Of a stretch of 64,000 bases of DNA, positions 41,601 through 61,400 are shown piece by piece. Within the stretch, counting starts at the first letter, position 1. Every line of letters starts with the position of its first letter. The stretch is taken from positions 1-64,000 of the forward strand of contig JAUPFP010000134.1 of the NCBI GenBank assembly GCA_036925085.1, in the 5' to 3' direction. The DNA comes from Brachycybe producta (lineage: Eukaryota; Arthropoda; Diplopoda; Playtdesmida; Andrognathidae). The notes under the pieces were generated by a model. The model was not told where the DNA came from. It did no database searches and saw nothing but the letters and a program-made list of their open reading frames with translations. A program made the translations under genes and the position numbers.

Positions 41601-44030
41601 CGTTTAAGGTTGAACGTTTAAGGTTGAACGTTTAAGGTTGAACGTTTAAGGTTGAACGTTTATGGATGAACGTTTAAGGTTGAACGTTTAAGGTTGAACG
41701 TTTAAGGTTGAACGTTTAATGTTGAACGTTTAAGGTTGAACGTTTATGGTTGAACGTTTAAGGTTGAAAGTTTAAGGTTGAACGTTTAAGGTTGAACGTT
41801 TAAGGTTGAACGTTTAAGGTTGAACGTTTAAGGTTGAACGTTTAAGGTTGAACGTTTAAGGTTGAATGTTTAAGGTTTAATGTTTAAGGTTGAACGTTTA
41901 ATTTTGAACGTTTAAGGTTGAACGTTTAAGGTTGAACGTTTAAGGATGAACGTTTAAGGTTGAACGTTTAAGGTTGAACGTTTAAGGTTGAACGTTTAAT
42001 GTTGAAACGTTTAAGGTTGAACGTTTAAGGTTGAACGTTTAAGGTTGAGCGTTTAAGGTTGAACGTATAAGGTTGAACGTTTAAGGCTGAACGTTTAAGA
42101 TTGAACGTTTAAGGTTGAACGTTTAATGTAGAACGTTTAAGATTGAACGTTTAAGGTTGAACGTTTAAGGTTGAACGTTTAAGGTTGAACGTTTAAGGTT
42201 GTACGTTTAAGGTTGAACGTTTAATTTTGAACGTTTAAGGTTGAACGTTTAAGGTTGAAAGTTTAAGGTTGAATGTTTAATTTTGAACGTTTAAGATTGA
42301 GCGTTTAATGTTGAACGTTTAAGGTTGAACGTTTAATGTTGAACATTTAAGGTTGAAAGTTTAAGGTTGAATGTTTAATTTTGAACGTTTAAGATTGAGC
42401 GTTTAATGTTGAACGTTTAAGGTTGAACGTTTAATGTTGAACATTTAAGGTTGAACGTTTAAGGTTGAACATTTAAGGTTGAACGTTTAAGGTTGAACGT
42501 TTAAGGTTGAACGTTTAAGGTTGAACGTTTAAGGTTGATTGTTTAAGGTTGAACGTTTAAGGTTGAACGTTTAAGATTGAACGTTTAAGGTTGAACGTTT
42601 AAGGCTGAACGTTTAAGATTGAACGTTTAAGGTTGAACGTTTAAGGTTGAACGTTTAAGGTTGTACGTTTAAGGTTGAACGTTTAATTTTGAACATTTAA
42701 GGTTGAATGTTTAAGGTTGAACGTTTAAGGTTGAACGTTTAAGGTTGAACGTTTAAGGTTGAACGTTTAATGTTGAACGTTTAAGGTTGAACGTTTAATG
42801 TTGAACGTTTAAGGTTGAACGTTTAAGGTTGAACGTTTAAGGTTGAACGTTTAAGGTTGAATGTTTAAGGTTGAACGTTTAAGGTTGAACATTTAATTTT
42901 GAACGTTTAAGGTTGAACGTTTAACGTTGAACGTTTAATGTTGAACGTTTAAGGTTGAACGTTTAAGGTTGAACGTTTAAGGTTGAACGTTTAAGGTTGA
43001 ACGTTTAAGGTTGAACGTTTAAGGTTGAACGTTTAAGATTGAATGTTTAAGGTTGACCGTTTAAGGTTGAACGTTTAAGGTTGAACGTTTAAGGTTGAAC
43101 GTTTAAGGTTGAACGTTTAAGGTTGAACATTTAAGGTTGAACGTTTAAGGTTGAACGTTTAAGGTTGAACGTTTAAGGTTGAACGTTTAAGGTTGAACGT
43201 TTAAGGTTGAATGTTTAAGGTTTAATGTTTAAGGTTGAACGTTTAATTTTGAACGTTTAAGGTTGAACGTTTAAGGTTGAACGTTTAAGGTTGAACGTTT
43301 AAGGTTGAACGTTTAAGGATGAACGTTTAAGGTTGAACGTTTAAGGTTGAACGTTTAAGGTTGAACGTTTAATGTTGAACGTTTAAGGTTGAACGTTTAT
43401 GGTTGAACGTTTAAGGTTGAAAGTTTAAGGTTGAACGTTTAAGGTTGAACGTTTAAGGTTGAACGTTTAAGGTTGAACGTTTAAGGTTGAACGTTTAAGG
43501 TTGAACGTTTAAGGTTGAACGTTTAATTTGGAACGTTTAAGGTTGAACGTTTAAGGTTGAACGTTTAAGGTTGAAGGTTTAAGGTTGAACGTTTAAGGTT
43601 GAACGTTTAAGGTTGAACGTTTAAGGTTGAACGTTTATTGTTTAATGTTTAAGGTTGAATGTTTAAGGTTGAACGTTTAAGGTTGAACGTTTATGGTTGA
43701 ACGTTTAAGGTTGAACGTTTAAGGTTGAACATTTAAGGTTGAACGTTTAAGGTTGAACGTTTAAGGTTGAACGTTTAAGTTTGAACGTTTAAGGTTGAAC
43801 ATTTAAGGTTGAACGTTTAAGGTTTCACGTTTAAGGTTTCACGTTTAAGGTTTCACGTTTAAGGTTGAACGTTTAAGGTTGAACGTTTAAGGTTGAACGT
43901 TTAAGGTTGAACGTTTAATTTGGAACGTTTAAGGTTGAACGTTTAAGGTTGAACGTTTAAGGTTGAAGGTTTAAGGTTGAACGTTTAAGGTTGAACGTTT
44001 AAGGTTGAACGTTTAAGGTTGAACGTTTAA
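38640..44030. repeat. Higher-order repeat of about 4.87 kb containing the paralogous empty site
   Basis: The series TTTATTGTTTAA, ATGG unit, AAGTTTG unit, three TTTCACG units, AATTTGG, then GAAGGTTT occurs at about 38770-39100 and again at about 43630-43978. The GAAGGTTT units start at 39091 and 43965, an offset of 4874 bp (348 units plus 2 bases from 15-bp units). Downstream of 39189 the copy continues as TCACCTTTAAGATTGAATG, which on the other copy lies at 55492, beyond the inserted element. Confidence 0.85.
44027..44030. other. Left target-site duplication, TTAA
   Basis: The satellite unit ends GAACGTTTAA at 44030 and the next base starts non-satellite sequence. TTAA at 44027-44030 is repeated at 55456-55459, where the satellite resumes in phase with GGTTGAACG. 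Removing the island and one TTAA restores an uninterrupted 14-bp register. Confidence 0.9.
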
Positions 44031-44047
44031 GAGGGCTACAGAAGCGT
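44031..44047 (+). repeat. Left terminal inverted repeat (short, imperfect)
   Basis: GAGGGCTACAGAAGCG at the left end pairs with the reverse complement of the right end, GAGGGTTGTGAAGCAA. Five terminal bases are identical, and the GAAGC block is shared after a one-base gap. Such termini are typically where transposase cuts. Confidence 0.7.
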
Positions 44048-44540
44048 CGGACTTTTTTTTTGACAGACGACACTATAATTGCAGTGTCTGACGTCAGAGG
44101 CGCCACGTGTATTCAATTACCATAGACATAATTTCAAACAAATACAGTTTGGTTAGAAACATACTATTTGAAGACATATAAGTTTTTAAAATGTAATTAA
44201 AACTGTAATAAATATTAGATTGTTTATTGGATGATTTGGAAAATTTTCAGACTTTAAATCTGTTTTTAAATATTTTTAATTAAGTATTTAAAAAGGTGTT
44301 TTTTTTTTCTATGCAAAATCTCATAGGAAAAAAAAAGCTACATATTCCGCACACATTTTTTTTTTATAAAGGAGATAATATTAAAAAAAAAAAGTGGTTG
44401 TAGATTTATTTGTTTTCTATAAAACAGGTAAATTTCATTGCCTAATTACATGTGTATATTTTTATATTGAAGTAAAAGTAGTAATGGGCCAATTTTTTCA
44501 GATCAACAAGAATCTGATTCAGTCAAGGCCTGGTTAGAGA
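44048..44540. other. Left subterminal region, AT-rich with CRE and E-box
   Basis: No gene is visible. A palindromic TGACGTCA (cAMP-response-element type) lies at 44089-44096 and a CACGTG E-box at 44104-44109. ATTACCATAG at 44116-44125, 85 bp from the left end, recurs in direct orientation at 55367-55376, 79 bp from the right end, and may be a subterminal recognition site. The rest is AT-rich with poly-T and poly-A runs. Confidence 0.5.
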
Positions 44541-44545
44541 GTACA

Positions 44546-44590
44546 TGACGTCACATTACACATAATTTCTTGTTTACTCGGCCGCCATTT
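44546..44590 (+). promoter_or_regulatory. Promoter-like cluster: CRE palindrome and GCCGCCATTTT
   Basis: TGACGTCA lies at 44546-44553 and CGGCCGCCATTT at 44579-44590. CRE and YY1-type (GCCATTTT or its complement) motifs are common at animal housekeeping promoters. The cluster stands just upstream of an ATG-containing mini-exon with a good GTAAGT donor at 44706, and about 530 bp upstream of the importin-alpha fragment. It could be that gene's own promoter, captured with it. Function is inferred from motifs only. Confidence 0.45.
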
Positions 44591-44676
44591 TTTTTTTGTC
44601 TTTTCATGGACTTGTTCTTCATTATTTATATACTAAAGTTTTTTTTTCGGGTTTTGAGTGGGTAAATCCAACGGAC

Positions 44677-44705
44677 ATGAAAGCAGGAGCAACACGAAAA
44701 TATCG
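44677..44705 (+). other. Candidate first exon of the captured importin-alpha gene
   Basis: ATG AAA GCA GGA GCA ACA CGA AAA TAT CG is followed by a strong donor, GTAAGTG, at 44706. Joined to the next acceptor (CAG at 45109-45111), its frame does not match the importin ATG at 45112, so it would act as untranslated leader or a short upstream frame. The first intron would be 406 nt. A similar ATG-plus-GTAAGT module occurs four times near the right end of the element. Confidence 0.35.
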
Positions 44706-44793
44706 GTAAGTGATTGAATTTTGTTTCTGAAAAACGTTCGTTTGAAAAATATAAAATATAAATGAAATTTGCAATAAAATACTATAACGATAA

Positions 44794-44944
44794 CACTTAT
44801 AACGATATATATTTTCATGTTTATTAATCTTTCAAAGTCAATTTTTTATGTTATGTGTCGACTTTTTAAGCAGATGTTTCATTTTTGTCTATAAAAAGTT
44901 TATTTTGAAAGATTATTAAACATAAAATCTATCGTTATAGGTGA
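44794..44944. repeat. Imperfect inverted repeat, arms about 45 bp
   Basis: The left arm (44794-44839) reads CACTTATAACGATATATATT then TTCATGTTTATTAATC. The right arm (44902-44944), reverse-complemented, reads CACCTATAACGATAGATTTT then ATGTTTAATAATC. The arms share TAATCTTTCAAA and enclose about 60 bp. The structure could be a foldback remnant or a small nested non-autonomous element in the intron; no TSD is clear. Confidence 0.6.
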
Positions 44945-45111
44945 TTGAGCTAGCCTTCTAATTTCTAAAAAACATTCAATTTTCTCTTTTTTGCTCTCCT
45001 GAAAGACAAAATAATCAGAGTTTGAGAATCAGCTCTTCATAAAACCCAACATATAATAATAATAATCATAATAATATGTGACAATTGCGTTATGTTTTAT
45101 GTTTCTGTCAG

Positions 45112-45587
45112 ATGTCCACTCCACAGCAGCAACAGTCGAGTCAACACCTACATCTTTACAAAAATGCAGCATTGGACGCACAAGAATGACGAAGGAGACG
45201 AGAAGGAGTTCAACTGAGGAAGCAGAAAAGAGAACAGCAAGTTATTAACTTTCGTTTTTTCTCTCAAGCGTAGATCTGGATTATTTCTCGATTTCAAATT
45301 CTTTTTCTTTTCGTAATTATTCAAACGACGGAACGTAAATCTTCCGAATGATACGGAACAAGACGAAGAAATGAATGCTTCGTTACCCGAAGATTTCAAC
45401 TAGTCTACCGTTCAGGTTTAATCTCGCGTCTCTTTTTCTTTTGACTTTCTAGTTTGGATGAGTTTTGAAGTTTTTTTCGTCTGTTTTTAGGGTGGAATCA
45501 CGCCGGAAATGGCTCAGTCTTTGTACAGCGATGATGTTGATGAACAACTGAGTGCAACGCAAAAGTTTCGAAAGCTTCTATCTCGCG
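45112..45587 (+). pseudogene. Importin-alpha (karyopherin alpha, KPNA1/5/6 type) 5' gene fragment with introns, disrupted
   Basis: Importin alpha binds classical nuclear localisation signals and docks on importin beta through its N-terminal IBB domain. Three exon-like blocks match its first roughly 110 residues. Block A, 45112-45240, starts ATG after a CAG acceptor and ends with the IBB core RRRREGVQLRKQKREQQ before a GT donor. Block B, 45317-45415, opens LFKRRNVNLPND, exactly the residues that follow in the family. Block C, 45491-45587, encodes GGITPEMAQSLYSDDVDEQL then SATQKFRKLLSR, the linker and start of the first armadillo repeat. Phases 0, 0 and 1 are consistent. Damage: TGA at 45187-45189 in block A, TAG at 45401-45403 in block B, and the acceptor before block B reads AA instead of AG (45315-45316). 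The remaining armadillo repeats are absent. Retained introns mean it was acquired as genomic DNA, not by retroposition. Identity is from family recall, without a search. Confidence 0.85.
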
Positions 45588-46414
45588 GTAGGTTTGTTTT
45601 TCGGTAGGAAAATATGGACTTGAAATTAGTAATTGTGTGTTTTATACTTTTTAACATATGGTTTTAAAGGTGTAAACGATGCCGCTCGCAAACTCTTTGA
45701 TTATTTTGTCTTTCAGACGCAAAATGAAGAAAATCTTGAATGCATGTGTATTAGAAACTAAAATGGTAGCTCAATGACGAAAGGCCATTTTCATATTGAT
45801 ATCTTTCAAAATAAGCTTTTTATGATAGTGTTTTTGAAAAATAACCAAACTTTAAACAGACAGTATTTTGTAATTTTTGTCTGTAAAAAAATTATTTTGT
45901 AATGTCATCGAAATGAAAGTACAATTAATTGATTCAGCTATCCATTCTAGTTTCTAACTATAAGTAAAAAGTTTCTAACTAAAAGTAAGTAGTTAGTTTC
46001 TTGTGGCGACCCTGAGTGCCACACACTGTGTATTTTATTATTAATTTAATATTTAATATTATTTCATTTATTTGTATCTTCTTAATGATAATAAAAACTA
46101 ATTCTTTGTATTTTTGTATTTGCATTTGTAAATCTATTTGTATTTGTGAAATAATTTGTAAAGCTTGATAAGATAATGGATGGCACCACAGTAGTTTTTT
46201 TTTTTATAACTTTTTGCTTCATTCACACTTTTTTCTTTGTTTGTGACTGTTGTTTGTGACTGTAGCTCTGTGAAAGGTAAGGTTTATGTTTTTTATTTTT
46301 AATTTTTAATTTATAATTATAATAATAATGAAAATAATAAAAATAATAAAATGAAATAGTAAAATATAATAAAATAAAGTAATAAAATCAAATAAATAAT
46401 TAAAAATATAATAA
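45588..46414. other. AT-rich intergenic stretch with no supported gene
   Basis: It begins with a plausible donor (GTAGGT at 45588) of the importin-alpha fragment, but no matching next exon follows. GTTTCTAACTATAAGTAA-type repeats lie at about 45953-46000. Part of 45790-45920 (ATCTTTCAAAATAAG, TTGTCTGTAAAAA) loosely resembles 44820-44910 and may be a diverged copy. From about 46290 it is low-complexity AATAAAAT sequence. No reading frame is credible. Confidence 0.5.
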
Positions 46415-46492
46415 AATAAAATAATTAAAAATGTTAAATAAAATAATTAAAAATGTTAAATAAAATAATTAAAAATGTCAAATAAAATAATT
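46415..46492. repeat. 22-bp AT-rich tandem repeat, about 3.5 copies
   Basis: ATAATT recurs at 46421, 46443, 46465 and 46487, defining a 22-bp unit close to ATAATTAAAAATGTTAAATAAA inside low-complexity sequence. Confidence 0.75.
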
Positions 46493-46663
46493 AATAATTA
46501 AACATATAATTAATAAAGAATTTTTTATACACAAAACATTTGTATAATAGTATAATAGTAATAGTGTCAAAAAATATTTTCTTAGGGTTATTTACTTGAT
46601 GACATTGTTTTTATCCAGGGCAGTTCATTTTTTTGGTGGGTGGGTTGGGCACTCAGCTTAGTA

Positions 46664-46785
46664 GAGTTTTTATTGCTTTTCTCTTCGTCTCTTTTTTCTT
46701 CAGACTTTTTTATTGCTTTTCTCTTCGTCTCCTTTTTCTTCAGACTTTTTTATTGCTTTTCTCTTCGTCTCCTTTTTCTTTAGAC
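46664..46785. repeat. 40-bp pyrimidine-rich tandem repeat, 3 copies
   Basis: The unit CAGACTTTTTTATTGCTTTT followed by CTCTTCGTCTCCTTTTTCTT starts at 46701 and 46741; a slightly diverged copy precedes it from about 46664. The near-pure pyrimidine strand could form unusual DNA structure or act as a polypyrimidine tract. The 70-residue frame read through it is low complexity and not credible as a protein. Confidence 0.8.
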
Positions 46786-46826
46786 TCTTATTCCTTTTCT
46801 TGTTTCTTTTAGTGACGTATTCTCAT

Positions 46827-47166
46827 AATATTACTAGGGCTCAGATTTTGATGCAATATCAACGGGAACGTTTCTCAATATGTGGCCCAAGTGCCAATTG
46901 TGAAGTAACAATCTCGTTTAGATAAAAATTGTTCTTTCTAATTAAAAAAAATAGTTAAGAGCCTAGAACTCTAGTTGACAACTGATAGTAACCAGACATC
47001 TAGTCTCTCTAACCAGCCTTTTATGATTTGAAAAATCATAATTGCAGTTTGCTCTAATAATGATGATTGATTCCTTCACAATTGGCACTTGGGCCACAAA
47101 TTGAGAAACATTCCTGTTGGTATGTTCCAGGTCATGTGGCATCAAAATCAGAGCCCTAATCATTAC
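46827..47166. repeat. Inverted repeat, arms 80-93 bp
   Basis: The left arm 46827-46905 (TACTAGGGCTCAGATTTTGA ... TGGCCCAAGTGCCAATTGTG) is the reverse complement, with substitutions and one gap, of 47074-47166. The best block, GTGGCCCAAGTGCCAATTGTGAAG, matches over 24 positions. The spacer is about 170 bp. It could be a nested foldback or miniature element, or an end duplication. It abuts the alternating purine-pyrimidine tract. Confidence 0.75.
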
Positions 47167-47817
47167 ACATGAATAACGCATGTGCATCACAAGTAACTAC
47201 GTCATGTACATGAAAACATACATGTGTGTTTAACACACATGCGCGCACGTGCATATACGTGCATACACATGCGCGCACGTTTTTACACATGCACACGTGT
47301 GTACACATGCACACGTGCGAACACATGCGCGCAACTGTGTACACATGCGCGCACGTGTGTATATGTGCGTACAAATGCGCGCACGTGCGTATACGTGCGA
47401 ACACATGCACACACGTGCAAACACATGCGCGCACGTTTTTACACATGCACACACATGCGTACACATGCACACACGTGCTTACACATGTGCGCACTTGTGT
47501 ATATGTGCGTACAAATGCGCACACGTGTGTATACGTGCGAACACATGCACACACGTGTGAACACATGCGCGCAAGTGTGTACATGTGCATACACATGCGC
47601 ACATGTGTGTATACGTGCGTACAAATGCGCGCACATGCATATACGTGCATACACATGCACACACGTGCATACACATGAACACACGTGCATACACATGAAC
47701 ACACGTGCATACACATGCACACACGTGCGAACACATGCGTGCACGTGTGTATATGTGCGTACATGTGCATACACATGCGTGCAAGTGTGTACACGTGCAT
47801 ACACATGCAAGCAACAA
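47167..47817. repeat. Alternating purine-pyrimidine minisatellite, Z-DNA prone
   Basis: About 650 bp of shuffled ACACATGCGCGCACGTGTGT-type blocks, with units close to 18-20 bp built from ACACATGC, GCGCACGTGT and ATACGTGC. Purines and pyrimidines alternate almost perfectly, the pattern that favours left-handed Z-DNA and cruciforms. Because the sequence has no A/T-rich stop triplets, long open frames appear in several frames on both strands. Their products are only Thr, His, Cys, Met, Ala, Val, Tyr and Arg repeats. These are compositional artefacts, not genes. Confidence 0.9.
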
Positions 47818-47976
47818 TGAAAGAAAGTGTTATTTGATATATGAAAGCATACATTAAAGCAGTGGAGGTCTATCGGGTTCCTTGAATCCCTTGTTTACTA
47901 ATATTTTAGTGTAGCAAACAAATAAAAAAATTATTATAATAATCTAATATGGTTTAGTTTTCTCGTGTGTATTACA
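47818..47976. other. Short AT-rich intergenic spacer upstream of the transposase gene
   Basis: No feature is visible beyond AT-richness. It separates the Z-DNA-prone tract from the proposed transposase promoter. Confidence 0.4.
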
Positions 47977-47985
47977 TATATAAAA
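47977..47985 (+). promoter_or_regulatory. TATA-like box upstream of the transposase start
   Basis: TATATAAAA lies 48 bp upstream of the proposed first ATG (48034), leaving room for a short leader. It is the best TATA match near this gene. No initiator element is certain. Confidence 0.45.
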
Positions 47986-48033
47986 CATGTGACTTTACAT
48001 TAACATACGCAATGTTTCACTAGATAATTCACC

Positions 48034-51000
48034 ATGCCTAAATACAGACCGAAGAAGAGAAACAAAGCAGCCAAAGCACAAAGGCAACGACGTTTAAACG
48101 AAAAAGATGCAAATAGGTAGTTTTATTTACTTTTATGTCAGTTAAATGAAAGCTGATATTAAGAGCTACCCATACAAATGTCATTTGCAAATGCAGTGAT
48201 TCGCCTCAGGAAGAGGATGCGGATGAGGATGCGGCCGCTCAACTTCGCCAATATATTGTAACATATAAATGAGGTGCAGTACACTATTTACAATTACCTC
48301 TATTGAAAATATACAGATAAACCGGCAACCCCATCACCAAAATCAACAGATGACAGTTTTTTGTTAACACCAGCTCACTTCCAAGCACCCCCAATTCATG
48401 GTAAAATATTTATAAAATGTTTATTACAAATAATTACTAATAACACCAAAACAGACTACACAAGAGCAAGGTCATCAACGGCAGGGTCGTCTTTGACATT
48501 AAAGCCGCTCATGACCTGTCATGCGTGCGATGAAGAGCTGCTCTTCACTCCTCTTGATGTTACTGAGCACTTGAGAAACCGGCTTCATCGCAGAAATATG
48601 AGGGAGAGTCTTTCCGAGGAGAAGGAGGAGGAGGAGGAAGAGGAAAATGAACAGGTATTGAGACCAGAAAAGACCATTTACCAAACACCAGAGAAAGTTA
48701 TGCCATACTCCTTTACAACACCAACTTCTATTGAGAGGCATTCCTTAACAGTGAAGAGCGTCCAAAAAGAACTCCCGAAGCACACGGGGCGTCGGATCAT
48801 ATCTTTATTAAGTCTGACAAACATCATAGAAAAGGCCAGTATCCACGCAAAGAGATGCACAGCATCGAGACTGGCCTTTAAAAAAGAAACATCCAGGGGG
48901 CTATGTTCGAGAATTACTTTCGAATGTAGTGAATGCAGGAAATGCATTGCATTTTCTACAGATAGTAACGAAGCCGAGCCAGTAGTAAATACAGCTGCTG
49001 TACTGGGATGTGCCAGCATTGGAATTGGCCATCAGCAGCTAGAGGAACTCTTAGCTGTTGTTGGCATACCGTGCATGGCACAACGAACATTCCAAGCTGC
49101 AACAGATGAAATTCATTACAAACTCAGTGATGCATTAAAGGAGTCCATGAAAGAGGCAGCAATGGAGTCAAAACGAAGAGCAATGGAAAAAAACAACACT
49201 GATGATGACGGTGTTCCTTGGCTGACTGTTGTAGTCGACGGCTCTTGGGCAAAAAGGTCATACCAGCATAGTTATAATTCTTTGTCTGGTATGGCTGCTG
49301 TGTTTGATGCCGAAACAGGAAAGCTGATCGACCTGGCCGTCAGAAACCGATATTGCCCTAAATGTGCTGCGGCACAAACAAAAGGTGTCGATCCTGAGAA
49401 GCACCATTGTTTTAAAAACTGGGGAGGGTCTGCAGGTGCAATGGAAGCCGATATCATTTCAAAAGCCTTCACAGAGAGCGAAAGCAAGTATGGAGTACGT
49501 TACAAGTACGTAATTGGTGATGGTGACTCTAGTACTTACAAGGCAATTTGTGCGACTGGAGGCTATCCAGTTACGAAAATAGAGTGCACGAATCACCTTA
49601 TTCGTTCGTATGCGACCAAGATAAGAAAGATACCGAATGACACAAGGATCAGCCTCGAGGAGAGACGGTTTCTAAATCCAGATAGGGTTAACCGTCTCAT
49701 CAGTGCCGTTAGAGGAGCAGTAATGCGAAACTTTTCCTCAAAATGTTCGAAGGAGGAAAAGATGAAGGCACTGAAAAAAGACCTTGCACATGGTCCCATA
49801 CATGTTTTTAGAGACCACACAGAGTGTGGTGACTACTGCAAAAGAGATGCAAGCGAGCCGAACGATGTTCCCTTAGTACAGGGAAGTCTACTGTGGGAAA
49901 CGATCATGGCCACAATGAGAAGGCTGAAAGACCATGCTGACAGCCTAGTAGAGCGGTTAACAAACAATGTTGCAGAGCAATTCATGAGTCTTATATGCAA
50001 AGCCATAGGAGGAAAGCGTGTAAACTTCTGCATGGGAGCATCATACACAATGCGGGTGTATTGTGCTGGTTTAAACCAGTTACATGGACCTGGCTGGCAA
50101 GTTGAGGCCAGTAGGAAAATATTTCCTAAACAGACCCCACCATCTGTAATGAAGAAGATGGCACAAAAGCGAAGAAGGAATTTAGCACTCAAAGAGAAGT
50201 ACAGAAAAATACTTCGCTTTGAAGGTGGATATGCTAAACATTTAAGAAGAAAAGAGGCTCTCATGTCCTCCGAAGAGTCTCGCAAGCACTACGGGGGAAC
50301 AATGGATTTTGAAGACCTGCCAGAGGAAGAACTAAAAAAGAAAATGAACGAGCATGTCATCAGTCTATCGATTGATAAAGAACAAGCAGCAGCACTTGAA
50401 GTTGCAACCCGCGGAGGGCCAACAAATCCAAAATGGCTAAAAGAAAGACTAACAAGAGTCACAGCGAGCAATTTTGGGGTCATCTCCAAACAAAAAGAAT
50501 ACACACCATGTGACAAATTAGTCCGGAGAATTCTCTACCACAGGAACATTAAAAATCTTCCTGAAATAAGGTGGGGGATTGACAATGAAACAAGAGCGAT
50601 TCAGGAGTTCGAAAAACGATTCGAAGAAAGCGTTCAGGACTGTGGCTTATTTGTGGACCCCGAAGAACCATACCTTGGGGCCACGCCTGATGGTACAGTA
50701 GGTTCAGATGGGTTGATAGAAGTGAAATGCCCATTTGCTGCAAGAGATATGCTTGTGAGAGATGCAGTCGAGAAAGTAAGATCGTTTTGTTTGAAAAAAA
50801 TGAAAAACTCGGAAGAACTACATCTTTCCGAGAAACATGATTATTTTTTCCAGATACAAGGACAACTACATGTGACAAAACGAGAATTTTGCATTTTTGT
50901 CATTTGGACCACAAAGGATCTATATGTGGAAAAAATTTACAGAAATGACGATTTCTGGGAGAAACACATGAAACTACAGCTTCGTAATTTCTATTATGAC

Positions 51001-51213
51001 TGTATGCTCCCAGAAATTGTGGATTCAAGAGTGAGAAGAAGATCCACTGTGCGGGACCCACAATGGAAGTTGGAAGCAATTGCAGCAAGAAAGGAACAAC
51101 AGAGGCAGTCAACCGCAAACAAAGACGTTAGTAATTATATAATTATCTATAAATTACAAAATAAATTAATTTCGTTATATTCTAATTTTTAGAGTTCAAA
51201 AAAGAAATTTTAA
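48034..51213 (+). CDS. Transposase: U1-type zinc finger, Mutator-type DDE core and C-terminal YqaJ nuclease
   Basis: The open frame 48361-51192 encodes the core; residue numbers count from 48361. C53, C56, H70 and H76 form a C2H2 finger, followed by a run of Glu. The DDE core has D293 (VVVDGSW), C332/C335 with H349 and C350 (a second metal-binding group), D387 (GDGDSS), C409-x2-H412 (ECTNH) and E539 (NNVAEQF). The YqaJ domain spans about 690-860: R699, E743 (WGIDNE), D777 (ATPDG), E787-x-K789 (IEVKCP) and Q831/Q833 (FFQIQGQL), the PD-(D/E)XK signature of lambda-exonuclease-like enzymes. The DDE part should cut and join transposon ends in the nucleus; the role of the nuclease is unknown. Proposed exons: 48034-48116 (basic, MPKYRPKKRNK), 48197-48257 (acidic), 48317-48400, 48455-51126 and 51193-51213 (ending SSKKKF). 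Exons 2 and 3 join one base out of frame, so this copy may be broken there or start at ATG 48511. Introns 3 (54 nt) and 4 (66 nt) are stop-free multiples of three. Confidence 0.85.
48117..48196 (+). other. Proposed transposase intron 1
   Basis: It begins GTAGTT after AAATAG and ends TTTGCAAATGCAG. Splicing joins AAT-AG to T-GAT, keeping the frame from a basic first exon into an acidic second one (NSDSPQEEDADEDAA). It is 80 nt, similar in size to the other proposed introns. Confidence 0.6.
48258..48316 (+). other. Proposed transposase intron 2 (out-of-frame junction)
   Basis: It begins GTAACA after CAATATATT and ends AAAATATACAG, 59 nt. Exon 2 ends on a complete codon, but the downstream coding frame (DKPATPSPKSTDDSF) needs one more base before AT-AAA-CCG. 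No other donor or acceptor within the region repairs this by my reading, so a one-base deletion, a missed splice site or a sequence error is likely. Confidence 0.45.
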
Positions 51214-51235
51214 GGCACCCGGTGCTCCCCAATCC

Positions 51236-51277
51236 TTCATCTAACCTAACCTAACCTAACCTTCACCTAACCTAACC
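51236..51277 (+). repeat. Interstitial (CTAAC)n, telomere-like tract
   Basis: Four CTAAC units at 51241-51260 are followed by TTCAC and two more at 51267-51276. The complement is (GTTAG)n, the TTAGG telomere type of many arthropods. The tract is only about 40 bp, lies inside the transposon just 3' of the transposase stop, and grades into related degenerate repeats. Confidence 0.7.
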
Positions 51278-51362
51278 ATTGCCTCCACCTAGCCTTTAAC
51301 CTACCTAAACATTTCCTCCACCTAGCCTTTCCCCTACCTAGCATTTTCCTCACCGAGCCTTT
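51278..51362 (+). repeat. Degenerate 32-33-bp tandem repeat, 2.6 copies
   Basis: Units start at 51278, 51311 and 51343 with ATTKCCTCCACCTAGCCTTT-like sequence followed by MCCTACCTARC. CCTA-rich content links them to the adjoining (CTAAC)n tract, from which they may have diverged. Confidence 0.65.
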
Positions 51363-51639
51363 AAATAGTATTTTGTCGTGCGAACTGTGTTGGCACATGA
51401 GCCTGCCTCGTTTTTTAAATTGCCACCTTGACATCTCTTAGTAAGTTTGTTGTAGAAAAACATTGTATTTCATACTGATGGGGTTAATTTTCTAGAATTC
51501 TGCCATGCTGCTTTTGTCTTCCCATTATCAACATCATTTCTCACTCTTGAGACTTGCTGTTATCTCTATATACATGTATGTTGGTCAGTAACAGCTGAAC
51601 AAAACATCAGATGCTAATAATGTATAATCTTAATTTCAG
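51363..51639. other. Transposase 3' flank with no supported gene
   Basis: Mixed sequence with no convincing reading frame and no AATAAA after the stop codon at 51211-51213. An AATAAA occurs at 51161 inside the last proposed intron, so a transcript retaining intron 4 could be polyadenylated near there. The stretch ends with a good acceptor, TTAATTTCAG, at 51630-51639, the border of the first exon-like cassette. Confidence 0.4.
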
Positions 51640-53780
51640 GTTCCTCCCTGTGGTCCACATGATGAATGTCACAATGGTCCTTGTATTTGCAACATCATGC
51701 ATTTCAAACAGTAAGAACACTCATTTGCATTTCTGGATTAAAAATTATGTTATAATTTCTTTATTAAAGAGCTCTCCTCGCTCGCATTGATCCTTTGCCA
51801 CTGGCATTACTTCTATCATGGGAATCAATGATAAATCAACCCGTAAGTTTAAACATATACACTATAAACATACATAATATACAAATAATCACTTGCTGAT
51901 AAGATTCTTTCCACATTTCAGAGTCCTGTGCTGCTGCTCCTCAATCACCTTTAATTCGCTCTTTGTTGAATACATTTTTGTCCTTTCATAAGTATGTAAA
52001 CAGTTATTTAAATGAAATTAAAATGCTTAAAAAGGTTTCATTTCTAAGATCTCCATGTGGTGTGTATTTACTCTGCACTGCTCGCTGTGACAGCAATTCT
52101 TGAGTTTTGCCCTTGTAAGTTTATCTATTGCATATTACGATATCACAAAGTACTAAGAACAGTTCATTCAATTTTACAGTTTGCCATTATGGTGTTTGCA
52201 ATTGCTGCTTCTTTGTAAGTTATAAAAATTGTATATTATAAACATGTATTTATTGTAAATATAATGCTAATATTCTCAATTTCAGAACTCTCCAAGTTCT
52301 TCATGCTTGTTCTATTCTTCTTCTCCCCTTTTCTAGTAGTGCTGGCAACTTATGTTTCTATATCTGTGAGTTGCAAATATTATAGACCGTAAATTGTTTA
52401 CAAACTTGCATACATGTTACAGGCCTTCGACTTGGTGTGTGTGCTTCTTCTCCCCTTCGCTCATCATTGTCAACTATGTGTGCCTCTTCATCTGTAAGTG
52501 ATAACACTAATATATAATATATGCTAGTAAACTCCTTACAACAGTTGTTTCCATTTTAGAGGTCTCCATGTTGCTCCTCATGCACGCTGTATGGTTCCTC
52601 TTATGTGTGTTGTGTTTGTGACTCATGCTTCTGCATCTGTAAGTCACAACATTGCAACACAATAGCTAACTAAAGTATTCTAAGAATGTGCAATTTAAAC
52701 ATATGTCTAGATCGCTCCTTGTTCTCATCTCGTCCTCTTCTGTTCGGTTTCGTTCTGATTATCTGTGCCTCGTTTTCAGTAAGTATAACAAATGGCAGTT
52801 CAAGTATTGTTTTAAGAATGTGCTTTTTAAACAGGTGTCTCAATCGCTCATTGCCCTCATCTGTCCCTCTTGCATTCGGTTTCTAAAATGATTCGTGCCT
52901 TGTTTTCTGTAAGTATAACCAATGGCAGATGAAGTAGTGTTTTAAGAACATGCCTTTTCAACAGGTGTCTCCATTGCTCCTTGCTTTCATCTCGCCCTCT
53001 TCTGTTCGGTTTCTTTATGATCATCCGTACCTCGGTTTTAGTAAGTATAACACATGGGAGATGAAGTAGTGTTTTAAGAACATGCCTTTTCAACAGGTGT
53101 CTCCATTGCTCCTTGCTTTCATCTGGCCCTCTTCTGTTCGGTTTCTTTATGATCATCCGTGCCTCGGTTTTAGTAAGTATAACAAATGGGAGATGAAGTA
53201 GCGTTTTAAGAACATGTTTTTTCAACAGGTGTCTCCATTGTTCCTTGCTTTCATCTGGCCCTCTTCTGTTCAGTTTCTTTATGATCATATGTGCCTCGGT
53301 TTCAGTAAGTATAACAAATGGCAGTTAAAGTATTGTTTTAAGAAAGAACATTTTAACAGGTCTCAATCGCTCCTACGTCTCGTCTGGCCCTCTGGTGTTC
53401 GGTTTCTCAATCTCATCTGGCCTTCTGGTGTTCGGTTTCATGGATCATTCGTGCCTCGTTTTCAGTAGGTAGTCAATGGCAGATCAAGTAGTTTTTTTAA
53501 GAAAGAACATTTTAACAGGTCTCAATCGCTCCTTCGTCTCGTCTGGCCCTCTGGTGTTCGGTTTCTCGGTCTCATCTGACCTTCTGGTGTCCGGTTTCAT
53601 GGATCATTCGTGTCTCGTTTTCAGTAGGTAGTCAATGGCAGATCAAGTAGTTTTTTTAAGAAAGAACATTTTAACAGGTCTCAATCGCGCCTTCATCTCA
53701 TCTGGTCCTCTGGTGTTGTTTCTCGGTCTCATCTTGCCTTCCGGTGTTCGGTTTCATGGATCATTCGCGCCTCATTTTCA
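51640..53780 (+). repeat. Array of about 16 exon-like cassettes with splice-like borders
   Basis: Blocks of 35-105 nt each follow a TTYAG or ACAG acceptor and end at GTAAGT, GTGAG or GTAGGT. Blocks: 51640-51710, 51770-51842, 51922-51991, 52049-52114, 52180-52214, 52286-52365, 52423-52493, 52560-52638, about 52702-52778, 52835-52908, 52965-53040, 53097-53172, 53229-53304, 53360-53464, 53519-53623 and 53678-53780. Spacers are 54-79 nt, the size of the transposase introns. Most blocks open with a CTCC or TCTCCA motif. The right half is a clear tandem repeat of 130-132 bp, then 159 bp; the left half looks like older copies. The first block reads VPPCGPHDECHNGPCICN and joins the second in frame (FK-Q-ALLARIDP), and the eighth is Cys-rich (SPCCSSC). 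I could not keep one frame open through the whole array, so coding is unproven. Confidence 0.7.
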
Positions 53781-53815
53781 GTAGGTAGTCAATGGCAGAT
53801 CAAGTAGTTTTTTAA
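52699..53815. repeat. 132-bp then 159-bp tandem repeat
   Basis: ACAGGTGTCT starts at 52831, 52961, 53093 and 53225 (spacings 130, 132, 132), with a degenerate start at 52699. ACAGGTCTCAATCGC starts at 53356, 53515 and 53674 (spacing 159), the longer unit containing an internal duplication of CTCATCTGGCCTTCTGGTGT and the bases after it. Because 132 is divisible by three, a 44-residue repeat frame opens on the minus strand at 52857-53288; it has no other sign of coding. Confidence 0.88.
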
Positions 53816-53850
53816 TCTATTAGTTCGATTCCAATTTTTGTTTCTCCGTA

Positions 53851-53970
53851 ATTTGCATATTATGCAAATGCCTTTGGTTATAGAATTTGAAATGTTTTCC
53901 GATTCTCGTTATTTGCATATTATGCAAATGACTTTGGTTATAAAATTTGAAATGTTTTCGTTTTCCGATT
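53851..53970. repeat. 60-bp tandem duplication with a 19-nt octamer palindrome
   Basis: ATTTGCATATTATGCAAAT occurs at 53851-53869 and 53911-53929. Each copy is a perfect inverted repeat around one central base and contains ATTTGCAT and ATGCAAAT, the octamer recognised by POU/Oct proteins. The following TTTGGTTATA(G/A)AATTTGAAATG is also duplicated. It could be a dimeric binding site or an origin of hairpin extrusion. Confidence 0.8.
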
Positions 53971-54003
53971 CTCGTTAGTGACGTCGAAGGAGAGCAAGGT
54001 TTT

Positions 54004-54274
54004 ATGGCTCTAAAGCACTACTTAACTCCGTACGTTGCAAGTAAAGACTTTCTTAAAGAAACCTAATAAGAGAATGACGGAATCTTCGATGGTTATGAAA
54101 CAAATTTTCAATATTCCTAACGGTGACGTTCGTCATCCGAGAGGTCGTCCACGTAAACAACATTACGGCACTAGTTCGTCTAATGCTTCTTTCGTCGAAA
54201 AGTTGAAAGCTCGTAAGTTGATTAATAATTGTTTATTAATAATTTTTATAAAGAAATGTCATTTTACAATATAA
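54004..54274 (+). CDS. Possible AT-hook reading frame, probably frameshifted
   Basis: I do not recognise this protein. ATG at 54004 opens MALKHYLTPYVASKDFLKET and stops at 54064. One base over, a second frame from ATG 54074 reads MTESSMVMKQIFNIPNGDV and on to HPRGRPRKQ (54134-54160), a good match to the AT-hook core (RGRP) that binds the minor groove of AT-rich DNA. A one-base insertion near 54055 would explain both frames as one former exon. GCTC is followed by a GTAAGT donor at 54213; without splicing the frame stops at 54274. A TGACGTCG motif lies at 53989. The frame could be a captured 5' exon of a host gene or an accessory gene of the element. Confidence 0.35.
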
Positions 54275-54957
54275 AAAAGCTTATTTTAAAAGAAAGAATA
54301 TGAAAATGTGGCTCATTTACTCTTCTTGTTTCTAACACTTTATACTTATACACTTTACACTTCCTATTTAAATTTGCATGATGGTGATAAACCACAGTGC
54401 TACACCAGTAAGTTCTTTTGCTATTTTCTATCAAATTAGTAGTACAAATTTCGTGAATTCTTAGAAAAATAAATATGAAAGTACCCATCTTTGTATTTTT
54501 TTCTTCGATGTTTTCTTCTGAACGTAGCTGTAATATCGAAAGTATAACATGAAAGCCAATGGAGATTTTAACATGTTAAGTTCTTTTCCTGTTATCTTGC
54601 AATTTAATTGTACAAATATTGTCAAATTTTATGGAATTAAAATGTAGTCATAGGTAGTTTTATCTTAGACTATTACATAAGGTTGTCCTGTTTGTTTTTA
54701 GTTATTCAAAAGTTAACACCAAATTTCTGATGGTTTCTGAAGGGTATTATTAAAAACTAATACCTGACTGTGAAACTATGTACTTTTATCTTTATTTTTT
54801 GAAAATTTGACAATATTTGTGTTAGTAATTTGCAAGAAAACAGCAACAGAACTTACCGACATTAAAATCTCCATTTGCTTCCATGTTTTAGACTTTCGGT
54901 ATTACAGAGTTAGCTAAATTTCGTATGAAATTATTTCATTTACAAAATGATAGGTTT

Positions 54958-55010
54958 TGACGTCACTTCCTCCTCATTTCGTTGTAAAATAACGATTTTG
55001 TACGAAATGA
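54958..55010. promoter_or_regulatory. CRE palindrome and adjacent hairpin
   Basis: TGACGTCA lies at 54958-54965, the third exact copy in the element. TCATTTCGT (54974-54982) pairs with ACGAAATGA (55002-55010) across a short loop. These sit between modules C and D, where a promoter for module C (minus strand) would be expected. Confidence 0.4.
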
Positions 55011-55072
55011 TGACTAAAATTGAGAAATTATTCAATAATTTCGTAGTTTGATTTCATTTGAAACGAAATAAA

Positions 55073-55084
55073 TGCGCATGCGCA
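55073..55084. promoter_or_regulatory. NRF1-type palindrome TGCGCATGCGCA
   Basis: This perfect 12-bp palindrome matches the canonical animal NRF1 site, which marks housekeeping promoters. It stands alone in AT-rich surroundings between modules C and D. Confidence 0.5.
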
Positions 55085-55165
55085 GAAGCGGTTTAACGCC
55101 GTTTGAGAAACTTGAAAACGACGCTATTTTTACACCGCTTCGATGTAAAACGACGTCGTTTTCAA
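55084..55165. repeat. Nested hairpin with ACGACGTCGT core
   Basis: GAAGCGGT (55085-55091 region) pairs with ACCGCTTC (55134-55141), and TTGAAAACGACG (55112-55123) pairs with CGTCGTTTTCAA (55154-55165). The palindrome AAAACGACGTCGTTTT at 55147-55162 lies within. The overlapping arms could form alternative hairpins. Confidence 0.55.
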
Positions 55166-55279
55166 AAGAATAACCAACCCTACTCTATTTTTATATTTAT
55201 TTTTGTTCAGAAATTTACAAAAATTTGTAGAAAAAGCAAAAGAACTTACGTTGGGGATTTCCATCAGGTTAACGGACAT

Positions 55280-55291
55280 CCAAGATGGCGG
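55280..55291 (-). promoter_or_regulatory. YY1-type motif CCGCCATCTTGG on the minus strand
   Basis: CCAAGATGGCGG on the plus strand is the complement of the classical YY1 site. It lies 16 bp upstream of the module D ATG (55264) on the minus strand, mirroring GCCGCCATTTT upstream of the ATG mini-exon at the left end. Both ends may therefore carry inward-facing promoters. Confidence 0.45.
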
Positions 55292-55439
55292 AACAAATTT
55301 AGGTAAATTGTAGCCTCTAATACAGCCCACCAAAAAATACTATATATACATAGTAAGCTGTATGTCATTACCATAGGGTCCCATATACATAATAAAGCAC
55401 GATGCGAGCACCCTCTATGATTTTTTTTCTGAACTTAAC
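55292..55439. other. Right subterminal region
   Basis: No gene is visible. ATTACCATAG at 55367-55376 repeats the left subterminal copy in direct orientation at nearly the same distance from the end. AATAAA occurs at about 55390. Confidence 0.45.
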
Positions 55440-55455
55440 TTGCTTCACAACCCTC
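55440..55455 (-). repeat. Right terminal inverted repeat (short, imperfect)
   Basis: The element ends TTGCTTCACAACCCTC, the inverted counterpart of the left end. The terminal CCCTC is followed directly by the right TTAA duplication. Confidence 0.7.
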
Positions 55456-55459
55456 TTAA
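55456..55459. other. Right target-site duplication, TTAA
   Basis: TTAA follows the terminal CCCTC and runs directly into GGTTGAACG of the satellite, in register with the left flank. Confidence 0.9.
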
Positions 55460-58400
55460 GGTTGAACGTTTAAGGTTGAACGTTTAAGGTTTCACCTTTA
55501 AGATTGAATGTTTAAGGTTGAACGTTTAAGGTTGAACGTTTAAGGTTGAACGTTTAATTTGGAACGTTTAAGGTTAAACGTTTAAGGTTGAACGTTTAAG
55601 GTTGAACGTTTAAGCTTGAACGTTTAAGGTTGAACGTTTAAGGTTGAACGTTTAAGGTTGAACGTTTAAGGTTGAACGTTTAAGGTTGAACGTTTAAGGT
55701 TGAACGTTTAAGGTTGAACGTTTAAAGTTGAACGTTTAATTTTGAACGTTTAAGGTTGAACGTTTAAGGTTGAACGTTTAAGGTTGAACGTTTAAGGTTG
55801 AACGTTTAAGGTTGAACGTTTAAGAATGAACGTTTAATTTTGAACGTTTAAGGTTGAACGTTTAAGGTTGAACGTTTAAGCTTGAACGTTTAAGGTTGAA
55901 CGTTTAAGGTTTAACGTTTAAGGTTTCACGTTTAAGGTTTCACGTTTAAGGTTTCACGTTTAAGGTTTCACGTTTAAGGTTTCACGTTTAAGGTTTCACG
56001 TTTAAGGTTGAACGTTTAAGGTTGAACGTTTAAGGTTGAACGTTTAAGGTTGAACGTTTAAGGTTGAACGTTTAAGGTTGAACGTTTAAGGTTGAACGTT
56101 TAAGGTTGAACGTTTAAGGTTGAACGTTTAAGGTTGAACGTTTAAGGTTGAACGTTTAAGGTTGAACGTTTAAGGTTGAACGTTTAAGGTTGAACGTTTA
56201 AGGTTGAACGTTTAAGGTTGAATGTTTAAGGTTTAATGTTTAAGGTTGAACGTTTAATTTTGAACGTTTAAGGTTGAACGTTTAAGGTTGAACGTTTAAG
56301 GTTGAACGTTTAAGGTTGAACGTTTAAGGATGAACGTTTAAGGTTGAACGTTTAAGGTTGAACGTTTAAGGTTGAACGTTTAATGTTGAACGTTTAAGGT
56401 TGAACGTTTATGGTTGAACGTTTAAGGTTGAAAGTTTAAGGTTGAACGTTTAAGGTTGAACGTTTAAGGTTGAACGTTTAAGGTTGAACGTTTAAGGTTG
56501 AACGTTTAAGGTTGAACGTTTAAGGTTGAACGTTTAAGGTTGAATGTTTAAGGTTGAATGTTTAAGGTTTAATGTTTAAGGTTGAACGTTTAATTTTGAA
56601 CGTTTAAGGTTGAACGTTTAAGGTTGAACGTTTAAGGATGAACGTTTAAGGTTGAACGTTTAAGGTTGAACGTTTAAGGTTGAACGTTTAATGTTGAAAC
56701 GTTTAAGGTTGAACGTTTAAGGTTGAACGTTTAAGGTTGAACGTTTAAGATTGAACGTTTAAGGTTGAACGTTTAAGGTTGATCGTTTAAGGTTGATCGT
56801 TTAAGGTTGATCGTTTAAGGTTGAACGTTTAAGGTTGAACGTTTAAGGTTGAACGTTTAAGGTTGAACGTTTAAGGTTGAACGTTTAAAGTTGAACGTTT
56901 AAGGTTGAACGTTTAAGGTTGAACGTTTAAGGTTGAACATTTAAGGTTGAACATTTAAGGTTGAACGTATATGGTTGAACGTTTAAGGTTGAACGTTTAA
57001 GGTTGAACGTTTAAGGTTGAACGTTTAAGGTTGAACTTTTAAGGTTGAACGTTTAAGGTTGAACGTTTAAGGTTGAACTTTTAAGGTTGAACGTTTAAGG
57101 TTGAACGTTTAAGGTTGAACGTTTAAGTTTGAACGTTTAAGGTTGAACGTTTAAGGTTGAACGTTTAAGGTTGAACGTTTAAGGTTGAACGTTTAAGGTT
57201 GAACGTTTAATTTTGAACGTTTAAGGTTGAACGTTTAAGGTTGAACGTTTAAGGTTGAACGTTTAAGGTTGAACATTTAAGGTTGAACTTTTAAGGTTGA
57301 ACATTTAAGGTTGAACGTTTAAGGTTAAACGTTTAAGTTTGAACGTTTAAGGTTGAACGTTTAAGGTTGAACGTTTAAGGTTGAACGTTTAAGGTTGAAC
57401 GTTTAAGGTTGAACGTTTAATTTTGAACATTTACGGTTGAACGTTTAAGGTTGAACGTTTAAGGTTGAACGTTAAAGGTTGAACGTTTAAGGTTGAACGT
57501 TTAAGGTTGAACGTTTAAGGTTGAACGTTTAAGGTTAAACGTTTAAGGTTGAACGTTTAAGGTTGAACGTTTAAGGTTGAGCGTTTAAGGTTGAACGTTT
57601 AAGTTAGAACGTTTAAGGTTGAACGTTTAAGGTAGAACGTTTAAGGTTGAACGTTTAAGGTTGAACGTTTAAGGTTGAACGTTTAAGGTTGAACGTTTAA
57701 GGTTGAACATTTAAGGTTGAACGTTTAAGGTTGAACGTTTAAGGTTGAACGTTTAAGGTTGAAAATTTAAGGTTGAACGTTTAAGGTTGAATGTTTAAGG
57801 TTGAACGTTTAAGGTTGAACGTTTAAAGTTGAACGATTAAGGTTGAACGTTTAAGGTTGAACATTTAAGGTTGAACATTTAAGGTTGAACGTTTAAGGAT
57901 GAACGTTTAAGGTTGATCGTTTAAGGTTGATTGTTTAAGGTTTCACGTTTAAGGTTGAACGTTTAAGGTTGAACGTTTAAGGTTTCACGTTTAAGGTTTC
58001 ACGTTTAAGGTTTCACGTTTAAGGTTTCACGTTTAAGGTTTCACATTTGAGGTTTCACATTTAAGGTTGAACGTTTAAGGTTGAACATTTAAGGTTGAAC
58101 GTTTAAGGTTGAACCTTTAAGGTTGAATGTTTAAGGTTTCACGTTTAATGATGAACGTTTACGGTTGAATGTTTAAGTTTCAACGTTTAAGGTTGAACGT
58201 TTAAGGTTGAACGTTTAAGGTTGAACGTATACGGTTGAAAGTTTAAGGTTTCACGTTTAAGGTTTCACATTTAAGGTTGAACGTTTAAGGTTGAACATTT
58301 AAGGTTGAATGTTTAAGGTTGAACGTTTAAGGTTGAGCGTTTAAGGTTGAACGTTTAAGGTTGAACGTTTAAGGTTGAACGTTTAAGGTTGAACGTTTAA

Positions 58401-61400
58401 GGTTGAACGTTTAAGGTTGAACGTTTAAGGTTGAACGTTTAAGGTTGAACGTTTAAGGTTGAACGTTTAAGGTTGAACGTTTAAGGTTGAACGTTTAAGG
58501 TTGAACGTTTAAGGTTGAACGTTTAAGGTTGAACGTTTAAGGTTGAATGTTTAAGGTTGAACGTTTAAGGTTGAACGTTTAAGGTTGAACATTTAAGGTT
58601 GAACGTTTAAGGTTGAACGTTTAAGGTTGAGCGTTTAAGGTTGAACGTTTAAGGTTGAACGTTTAAGGTTGAACGTTTAAAGTTGAACGTTTAAGGTTGA
58701 ACGTTTAAGGTTGAACGTTTAAGGTTGAACGTTTAAGGTTGATCGTTTAAGGTTTATCGTTTAAGGTTGATTGTTTAAGGTTTCACGTTTAAGGTTGAAC
58801 GTTTAAGGTTGAACGTTTAAGGTTGAACGTTTAAGGTTGAACGTTTAAGGTTGAACGTTTAAGGTTTCACGATTAAGGTTTCACGTTTAAGGTTGATTGT
58901 TTAAGGTTGATCGTTTAAGGTTGATCGTTTAAGGTTTCACGTTAAAGGTTTCACGTTAAAGGTTGAACGTTTAAGGTTGAACGTTTAAGGTTGAACGTTT
59001 AAGGTTGAACGTTTAAGGTTGAACGTTTAAGGTTGAACGTTTAAGGTTGAACGTTTAAGGTTGAACGTTTAAGGTTGAACGTTTAAGGTTGAACGTTTAA
59101 GGTTGAACGTTTAAGGTTGAACGTTTAAGGTTGAACGTTTAAGGTTGAACATTTAAGGTTGAACGTTTAAGGTTGATCGTTTAAGGTTGAACGTTTAAGG
59201 TTGAAAGTTTAAGGTTGAACGTTTAAGGTTGAACGTTTAAGGTTGAACGTTTAAGGTTGAACGTTTAAAGTTGAACGTTTAAGGTTGAACGTTTAAGGTT
59301 GAACATTTAAGGTTGAACATTTAAGGTTGAACATTTAAGGTTGAACGTATATGGTTGAACGTTTAAGGTTGAACGTTTAAGGTTGAACGTTTAAGGTTGA
59401 ACGATTAAGGTTGAACTTTTAAGGTTGAACGTTTAAGGTTGAACATTTAAGGTTGAACTTTTAAGGTTGAACGTTTAAGGTTGAACATTTAAGGTTGAAC
59501 GTTTAAGGTTGAACGTTTAAGGTTGAACGTTTAATTTTGAACGTTTAAGGTTGGACGTTTAAGGTTGAACGTTTAAGGTTGAACGTTTAAGGTTGAACGT
59601 TTAAGGTTGAACGTTTAAGATTGAACGTTTAGGTTGAACGTTTAAGGTTGAACATTTAAGGTTGAACGTTTAAGGTTAAACGTTTAAGGTTGAACGTTTA
59701 AAGTTGAACGTTTAAGGTTGAACGTTTAAGGTTGAACGTTTAAGGTTGAACATTTAAGGTTGAAAATTTAAGATTGAACATTTAAGGTTGAACGTTTAAG
59801 GTTGATCGTTTAAGGTTGATCGTTTAAGGTTGATCGTTTAAGGTTTCATGTTTAAGGTTGAACGTTTAAGGTTGAACGTTTAAGGTTGAACGTTAAAGGT
59901 TGAACGTTTAAGGTTGAACGTTTAAGGTTGAATGTTTAAGTTTGAACGTTTAAGGTTAAACGTTTAAGGTTGAACGTTTAAGGTTGAACGTTTAAGGTTG
60001 AGCGTTTAAGGTTGAACGTTTAAGGTAGAACGTTTAAGGTTGAACATTTAAGGTTGAACATTTAAGGTTGAACGTTTAAGGTTGAACGTTTAAGGTTGAT
60101 CGTTTAAGGTTTCACGTTTAAGGTTTCACGTTTAAGGTTGAACGTTTAAGGTTGAACGTTTAAGGTTGAACGTTTACGGTTGAACGTTTAAGGTTGAACG
60201 TTTAAGGCTGAAAGTTTAAGGTTGAACGTTTAAGGTTTAACGTTTAAGGTTGAACGTTTAAGGTTGAATGTTTAAGGTTGAACGTTTAAGGTTGAACGTT
60301 AAAGGTTGAACGTTTAATTTTGAACGTTTAAGGTTGAACGTTTAAGGTTGAACGTTTAAGGTTGAACGTTTAAGGTTGAATGTTTAAGGTTGAACGTTTA
60401 AGGATGAACGTTTAAAGTTGAACGATTAAGGTTGAACGTTTAAGGTTGAATATTTAAGGTTGAACATTTAAGGTTGAACGTTTAAGGTTGAACGTTTAAG
60501 GTTGATCGTTTAAGGTTGATCTTTTAAGGTTTCACGTTTAAGGTTGAACGTTTAAGGTTGAACGTTTAAGGTTGAACGTTTACGGTTGAACGTTTAAGGT
60601 TGAACGTTTAAGGTTGAAAGTTTAAGGTTGAACGTTTAAGGTTGAACGTTTAAGGTTGAACGTTTAAGGTTGAACGTTTAAGGTTGAACGTTTAACGTTG
60701 AACGTTTAAGGTTGAACGTTTAAGGTTGAACGTTTAAGGTTTAACGTTTAAGGTTGAACGTTTAAGGTTGAACGTTTAACGTTGAACGTTTAAGGTTGAA
60801 CGTTTAAGGTTGAACATTTAAGGTTGAACGTATAAGGTTGAACGTTTAAGGTTGAACGTTTAAGGTTGAACGTTTAAGGTTGAACGTTTAAGGTTGAACG
60901 TTTAAGTTTGAACGTTTAAGGTTGAACGTTTAAGGTTGAACGTTTAAGGTTGAACGTTTAAGGTTGAACGTTTAAGGTTGAACGTTTAATTTTGAACATT
61001 TACGGTTGAACGTTTAAGGTTGAACGTTTAAGGTTGAACGTTAAAGGTTGAACGTTTAAGGTTGAACGTTTAAGGTTGAACGTTTAAGGTTGAACGTTTA
61101 AGGTTAAACGTTTAAGGTTGAACGTTTAAGGTTGAACGTTTAAGGTTGAGCGTTTAAGGTTGAACGTTTAAGGTAGAACGTTTAAGGTTGAACGTTTAAG
61201 GTAGAACGTTTAAGGTTGAACGTTTAAGGTTGAACGTTTAAGGTTGAACGTTTAAGGTGGAACGTTTAAGGTTGAACGTTTAAGGTTGAACATTTAAGGT
61301 TGAACGTTTAAGGTTGAACGTTTAAGGTTGAACGTTTAAGGTTGAAAATTTAAGGTTGAACGTTTAAGGTTGAATGTTTAAGGTTGAACGTTTAAGGATG

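Follow-up and report, generated by a model that had tools for sequence, protein, structure and literature searches.

Host Gene Pieces in a KolobokE-Like Transposon of Brachycybe producta: an Importin-Alpha Fragment Bounded by MITEs

Introduction

A KolobokE-like transposon of Brachycybe producta carries the 5' coding part of an importin-alpha gene, introns included, and sister copies of the same transposon carry a piece of a different gene, encoding a RhoGAP domain, directly after the same small repeat. MITEs lie at both boundaries of the importin piece, and its right boundary is common to the four copies which contain it; the piece has spread within the genome and is decaying. The transposon probably took up host gene pieces more than once, and the importin piece was probably obtained by repair copying between shared MITEs. 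The evidence came from a stretch of 64,000 nucleotides, called the window here (assembly GCA_036925085.1, contig JAUPFP010000134.1, or C134, positions 1 to 64,000, forward strand), and from comparisons with other contigs of the same genome. Coordinates of the features are given in Table 1.

Table 1. Features in the window and the evidence on which they are based.
Feature	Position	Strand	Basis
KolobokE-like transposon	44031..55455	+	GAGGG...CCCTC ends; ends and flanks read directly
Exon-like 5' transposon block, donor GTAAGTG	44677..44705	+	aligned in window, C33, C107, C259
MITE, left end of capture	44806..45027	.	left part as sister-copy MITE; right part indistinguishable from host MITE
Importin-alpha coding exon 1, one stop (TGA, codon 26)	45112..45240	+	translation, host alignment
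Retained intron 1, acceptor AG changed to AA	45241..45316	+	host alignment
Importin-alpha coding exon 2, one stop (TAG, codon 74)	45317..45415	+	translation, host alignment
Retained intron 2	45416..45490	+	host alignment
Importin-alpha coding exon 3	45491..45587	+	translation, host alignment
MITE copied with host intron 3	45656..45960	.	host identity stops at 45970
Open frame, Mutator-like transposase (PF20700) and YqaJ exonuclease (PF09588)	48361..51192	+	Pfam matches
Probable captured last-exon sequence of PAS-like gene on C3	53823..54202	+	53823-54196 matched on C3, 53933-54202 on C1

The Transposon and Its Setting

The preliminary description had placed the importin fragment in an animal transposon which duplicates TTAA, and the fragment does lie within an element of 11.4 kb with TTAA on both sides (44027-44030 and 55456-55459). 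The genome gave 39 Wnt-family matches, which mark the host as an animal. Near-identical relatives are a second copy on C134 and a copy on C119, and these two are likewise flanked by TTAA on both sides; for copies borne by the satellite described below, this finding is qualified by the TTAA contained in the satellite unit itself. The left TTAA is present also in the copies on C33 and C184. Exceptions are C107, with TTCA on both sides, and C259, with CTAA on the left and TTAA on the right.

The open frame of the transposon encodes 943 amino acids, with matches to PF20700 (3.4e-84) and, in residues 691-841, to the YqaJ domain (5.2e-17). The Pfam model PF20700 bears the name Mutator-like, but the TTAA target and the nuclease partner point to Kolobok. 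VVVDGSW, GDGDS, CTNH and NNVAEQ occur in that order in the transposase and are candidates, by inspection of the sequence, for the motifs of a DDD/E transposase with C/DxxH; the termini agree with the 5'-RR / YY-3' rule given for Kolobok in the available text of PMC9587614. That text also describes the KolobokE lineage as having a Kolobok transposase with a lambda-exonuclease-like nuclease downstream, and because of this make-up of transposase and exonuclease the window transposon is classed as KolobokE-like. We infer that the exon-like block upstream of the capture site is used as an exon.

Several other parts of the transposon deserve mention. A stretch of 90 bp (44481-44570) has more than 30 matches elsewhere at 95-97% among the best 40 of 160 candidates, perhaps short non-autonomous relatives. 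The left end (44031-44774) is 83-84% alike between the window and sister copies, whereas the region after the transposase (51200-52660) is 94-96% alike; this difference suggests recombination between subfamilies, i.e., a mosaic element. Positions 51241-51308 are rich in CCTAA, as if taken from subtelomeric DNA, and contigs C107, C3 and C50 have similar repeats in arrays close to their ends. Tandem repeats of 132 and 159 bp occupy 52674-53815, many of the units with donor-like GTAAGTAT words.

Around the transposon, which interrupts it, a 14-bp satellite fills the window (1972-44030 and 55456-64000). Its unit GGTTGAACGTTTAA includes the TTAA target, and four element copies (both on C134, C119 and C184) are situated in this satellite; the array may therefore be a landing platform for the element. 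Positions 1-1970 consist of another 14-bp repeat (TAAACCTTAAACTT) with the opposite strand bias, which meets the main satellite at about 1971.

The Importin-Alpha Fragment and Its Source

Three exon-like blocks had been read in the preliminary description as the N-terminus of importin-alpha, in correct order and phase and with introns kept, and this reading is upheld by their translation, by the domain match and by the host gene. Their joined translation, with X at stops, matched the Pfam IBB domain at 7.3e-23 and solved importin-alpha chains of the PDB at 2.2e-13 at best. A search of the genome (295 Mb, 442 contigs) with the IBB profile, in which all 12 candidates were scored, yielded seven matches. 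Four of these are inside the transposon, namely in the window, in the second C134 copy (29.2 kb further along the contig), on C119 and on C33; C22 and C87 hold other importin-like sequence.

The importin-alpha gene on C14 is intact (L011:6309-9699, 11 exons, 536 amino acids), and among PDB chains its protein most resembles importin alpha-7 and alpha-5. Window positions 44891-45970 are 86.3% identical to this locus over about 1.07 kb, introns included, and the first two coding introns of the gene align with both intron stretches named in the preliminary description. At the acceptor of intron 1 the host has TAG where the window has TAA, so the loss suspected earlier is real. The remaining matches of the transposon within the compared 10 kb of C14 are only copies of the small repeat. 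Judged by these alignments, the C14 gene is the source of the captured piece, which comprises three coding exons and two introns and extends from the 5' intron of that gene into intron 3. The captured feature is wider than the exon-like blocks (45112-45587), since host identity extends from 44891 to 45970, with MITE arms at both ends.

The suggestion that the promoter had perhaps been taken along is not supported. The host match starts in a MITE of the upstream intron of the host gene; left of 44891 no host match was found in the compared stretch of C14, and the DNA preceding the match is the 5' part of the transposon itself, which occurs in importin-free copies too.

A RhoGAP Gene Piece in Sister Copies

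The copies on C107, C184 and C259 contain no importin, i.e., they gave no IBB match in the genome search. Directly after the same MITE as in the window, they have DNA matching contig C34 (in C107 and C184 two stretches, of 379 bp with 88.7% and of 132 bp with 90.9% identity; in C259 two of 340 bp with 88.2% and of 595 bp with 87.4%), where the upstream exons of the respective gene encode a RhoGAP domain (6.9e-35). The left-end region separates the importin carriers (window, second C134 copy, C119, C33) from the RhoGAP carriers with a branch support of 1.000. Element copies which lack the importin block, with independent boundaries from a later insertion, had been named beforehand as an observation that would speak against capture. 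Copies without the block do exist, but they have the same MITE at this place, followed by a piece of another host gene.

The copies on C107 and C259 were considered as importin-free originals with an ORF1 of their own; this was given up, since the supposed ORF1 proved to be DNA of the RhoGAP gene on C34, and the polarity argument from importin-free copies was dropped for the same reason. No element copy free of both importin and RhoGAP at the capture site was found among the copies compared. RhoGAP DNA may have occupied this place first and have been replaced by importin. A copy on C1 contains a longer piece of the RhoGAP gene, the junction of which is shifted to the left by about 225 bases and lacks the MITE; either one capture with a later deletion or two captures may account for the two junctions. 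A MITE was also looked for at the donor breakpoint in C34 and was absent, the nearest one ending about 340 bp before it. Thus, homologous pairing of MITEs does not explain the RhoGAP capture on the donor side.

MITEs and the Importin Junctions

The MITE is palindromic, about 300 bp long, and represents an inverted-repeat element which is common in host DNA and is present in the first intron of the transposon. A genome search with the capture region gave at least 124 matches in the best 40 of 6893 candidates, mostly to the MITE parts. When 24 MITE copies were used as probes for density, they covered 4.5-10.1% of seven sampled host stretches and 89 of 5200 bp (1.7%) of the 5' parts of the elements on C107 and C259. 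On C14, MITEs are located at both capture limits, in the 5' intron (L011:5906-6235) and in intron 3 (L011:6858-7148).

At the left junction, up to 44987, the window is 86-87% like the MITE which C107, C184 and C259 have at this position, and host-only sequence has begun by about 45060; the interval is MITE in both sources, which are not cleanly separable there. The left MITE is in register between transposon and host. At the right junction, the window stops matching the host at 45970, where the core of the second MITE ends; this limit lies inside the host MITE, the tail of which was not carried. There follow about 30 bases of repeated TTTCTAACTA-like words and then, from 46000, an unrelated high-copy repeat, so the right junction does not rejoin the MITE of the transposon itself. 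Of the 40 matches listed for the start of this repeat (46000-46045), 36 are outside the four carriers. A stretch of 91 bases across the right junction was matched over 89-91 bases in the four carriers only, among the best 40 of 365 candidates, and one capture event is therefore the simplest reading.

Spread and Decay of the Fragment

The C33 copy is outside the satellite, with a left flank of its own. The flanks of the C119 copy are 87-89% like those of the window, which is under the similarity of four random array stretches (92-94%). The right flanks of the two C134 copies are 99.6% alike over 1902 aligned bases, compared with the same array background, and two separate insertions are therefore not favoured for this pair; their left flanks are at background (91.6%). 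Taken together, these comparisons place the four carriers at two or three independent sites.

Decay after capture, as proposed previously, is evident from the different inactivating changes in C33 and in the window. Stops are not shared (codon 27 in C33, codon 26 in the window), and in C33 a donor is lost and exon 2 is mostly deleted, whereas in the window an acceptor is lost. With the MITE parts and one three-way site left out, changes after the split of C33 and the window amounted to 9/237 in exons and 16/324 in introns (p=0.68). Differences from the host which are common to both carriers were 6/237 in exons and 22/324 in introns (p=0.03); fewer shared differences in exons are expected for a host gene under selection. 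The importin fragment is best read as a decaying passenger.

A Probable Third Piece

A block near the right end is 88-90% identical to C3 (53823-54196) and is present in seven close copies of the element; the C33 copy is cut short before it. The match on C3 starts at the end of a MITE, and coding sequence upstream gave weak PAS matches (PAS_11 at 4.5e-4, below the Pfam cut-off; HIF-3-alpha at 1.8e-4). On C1, transposon sequence of an older element directly abuts a longer stretch of the C3 locus. By sequence comparison the block is probably a third host piece, from a PAS-like gene. The block may instead be an open reading frame of the transposon itself, since the PAS matches fall below Pfam cut-offs and transfer may have run either way; the PAS-like sequence upstream on C3 argues against this.

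Proposed Mechanism and Alternatives

A MITE in the first intron of the transposon belongs to a family with many copies in host DNA. Were the transposon broken, by excision or at a stalled fork, this MITE could be exposed, and the broken end would pair with its counterpart in the importin-alpha gene, the MITE of the 5' intron. Repair synthesis, presumably in this direction, would copy about 1 kb up to the next MITE, in intron 3, and the new strand would be rejoined, probably by end-joining with short templated filler. In a separate event, RhoGAP-gene DNA would have been placed after the same MITE in the sister subfamily. The importin-bearing copy would then have spread by transposition and by duplication of the array, with the fragment decaying in the absence of selection.

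MITEs are frequent, and some coincidence is therefore possible at the importin limits. Joining of host DNA by ordinary end-joining or by random filler synthesis, with MITEs at the ends by chance, has a small but appreciable probability: MITEs make up as much as a tenth of sampled host DNA, filler is found at the right junction, and the RhoGAP donor breakpoint is without a MITE. Chance would, however, have to account for the occurrence of both host limits and of the transposon side of the left junction in a single MITE family, in register on the left. Rather unlikely is a stronger form of the proposal, according to which KolobokE elements are active gene collectors, whose own nuclease makes 3' single-stranded tails that anneal at MITEs in host introns, and whose first intron is both docking site and exon trap for replaceable pieces. 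That the exonuclease-like domain favours capture by way of single-stranded tails is speculation, and the RhoGAP donor side bears no sign of it.

The MITEs on both sides of the importin piece could also be the ends of a composite mobile unit and the piece a nested insertion. We regard this as improbable, since the outer half of the left MITE belongs to the transposon itself and occupies this position in importin-free copies too, the right limit is within the host MITE, with the tail left behind, and no target duplication was seen around the unit. A service of the importin exons to the transposon, by splicing to the 5' exon to yield an importin-beta-binding peptide or through an RNA acting on the host gene, appears very improbable. 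The exons do lie in sense orientation behind the exon-like block with its donor, the acceptor before exon 1 is intact, and the common ancestor of the carriers had codons 26 and 27 without stops, since the stops differ between copies; but splicing from the 5' block would not join the importin exons in their reading frame, the window has stops at codons 26 and 74 in addition to the lost acceptor, C33 has its stop at codon 27, the lost donor and the largely deleted exon 2, and exons diverged like introns after the two copies split. Repair copying between shared MITEs is preferred for the importin piece.

Comparison with Known Systems

In one transposase-bearing family of animal transposons, the same small repeat is thus followed by a piece of one or the other of two host genes, and a third gene is probably represented elsewhere. 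If shared MITEs can guide capture, this route would escape surveys which discard donor genes near transposable elements, and the extent to which animal DNA transposons move exons would be underestimated. Animal TIR transposons are already known to capture host sequence; the serial form in KolobokE was not found reported, and no report of host-gene capture by KolobokE was found in the accessible part of the open-licence literature. An element with the same transposase and nuclease is described in PMC9587614, whose KolobokE passages do not mention host gene fragments.

Plant Pack-MULEs and Pack-TYPE elements (PMC13317346, PMC8903248, available text) are likewise DNA transposons by which pieces of host genes are carried and multiplied; they differ in belonging to plants and to other superfamilies, and Pack-TYPE elements are described as non-autonomous. 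Turmoil-1 of Caenorhabditis elegans, an earlier animal case, likewise contains fragments of two host genes, but according to the accessible text of PMC2572040 its pieces are in the terminal repeats, and the element is a different one.

Tan et al. 2021 (PMC8277862) reported, in the text available, 370 animal Pack-TIRs, four of them multicopy in reference genomes, and explained them by gap filling or fork switching with template switching; the word "Kolobok" has no occurrence in the main text. Their survey excluded parental copies with transposable elements within 100 bp, and the authors state that parents linked to such elements may be missed. Like these Pack-TIRs, the transposon described here contains non-TE host sequence in a TIR transposon, and the parental copy is known (C14, and C34 for the sister copies). 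Unlike that set, the parental piece on C14 has MITEs at both limits and would fall outside their 100-bp rule; the transposon moreover has a transposase open reading frame, and its sister copies contain another gene after the same repeat.
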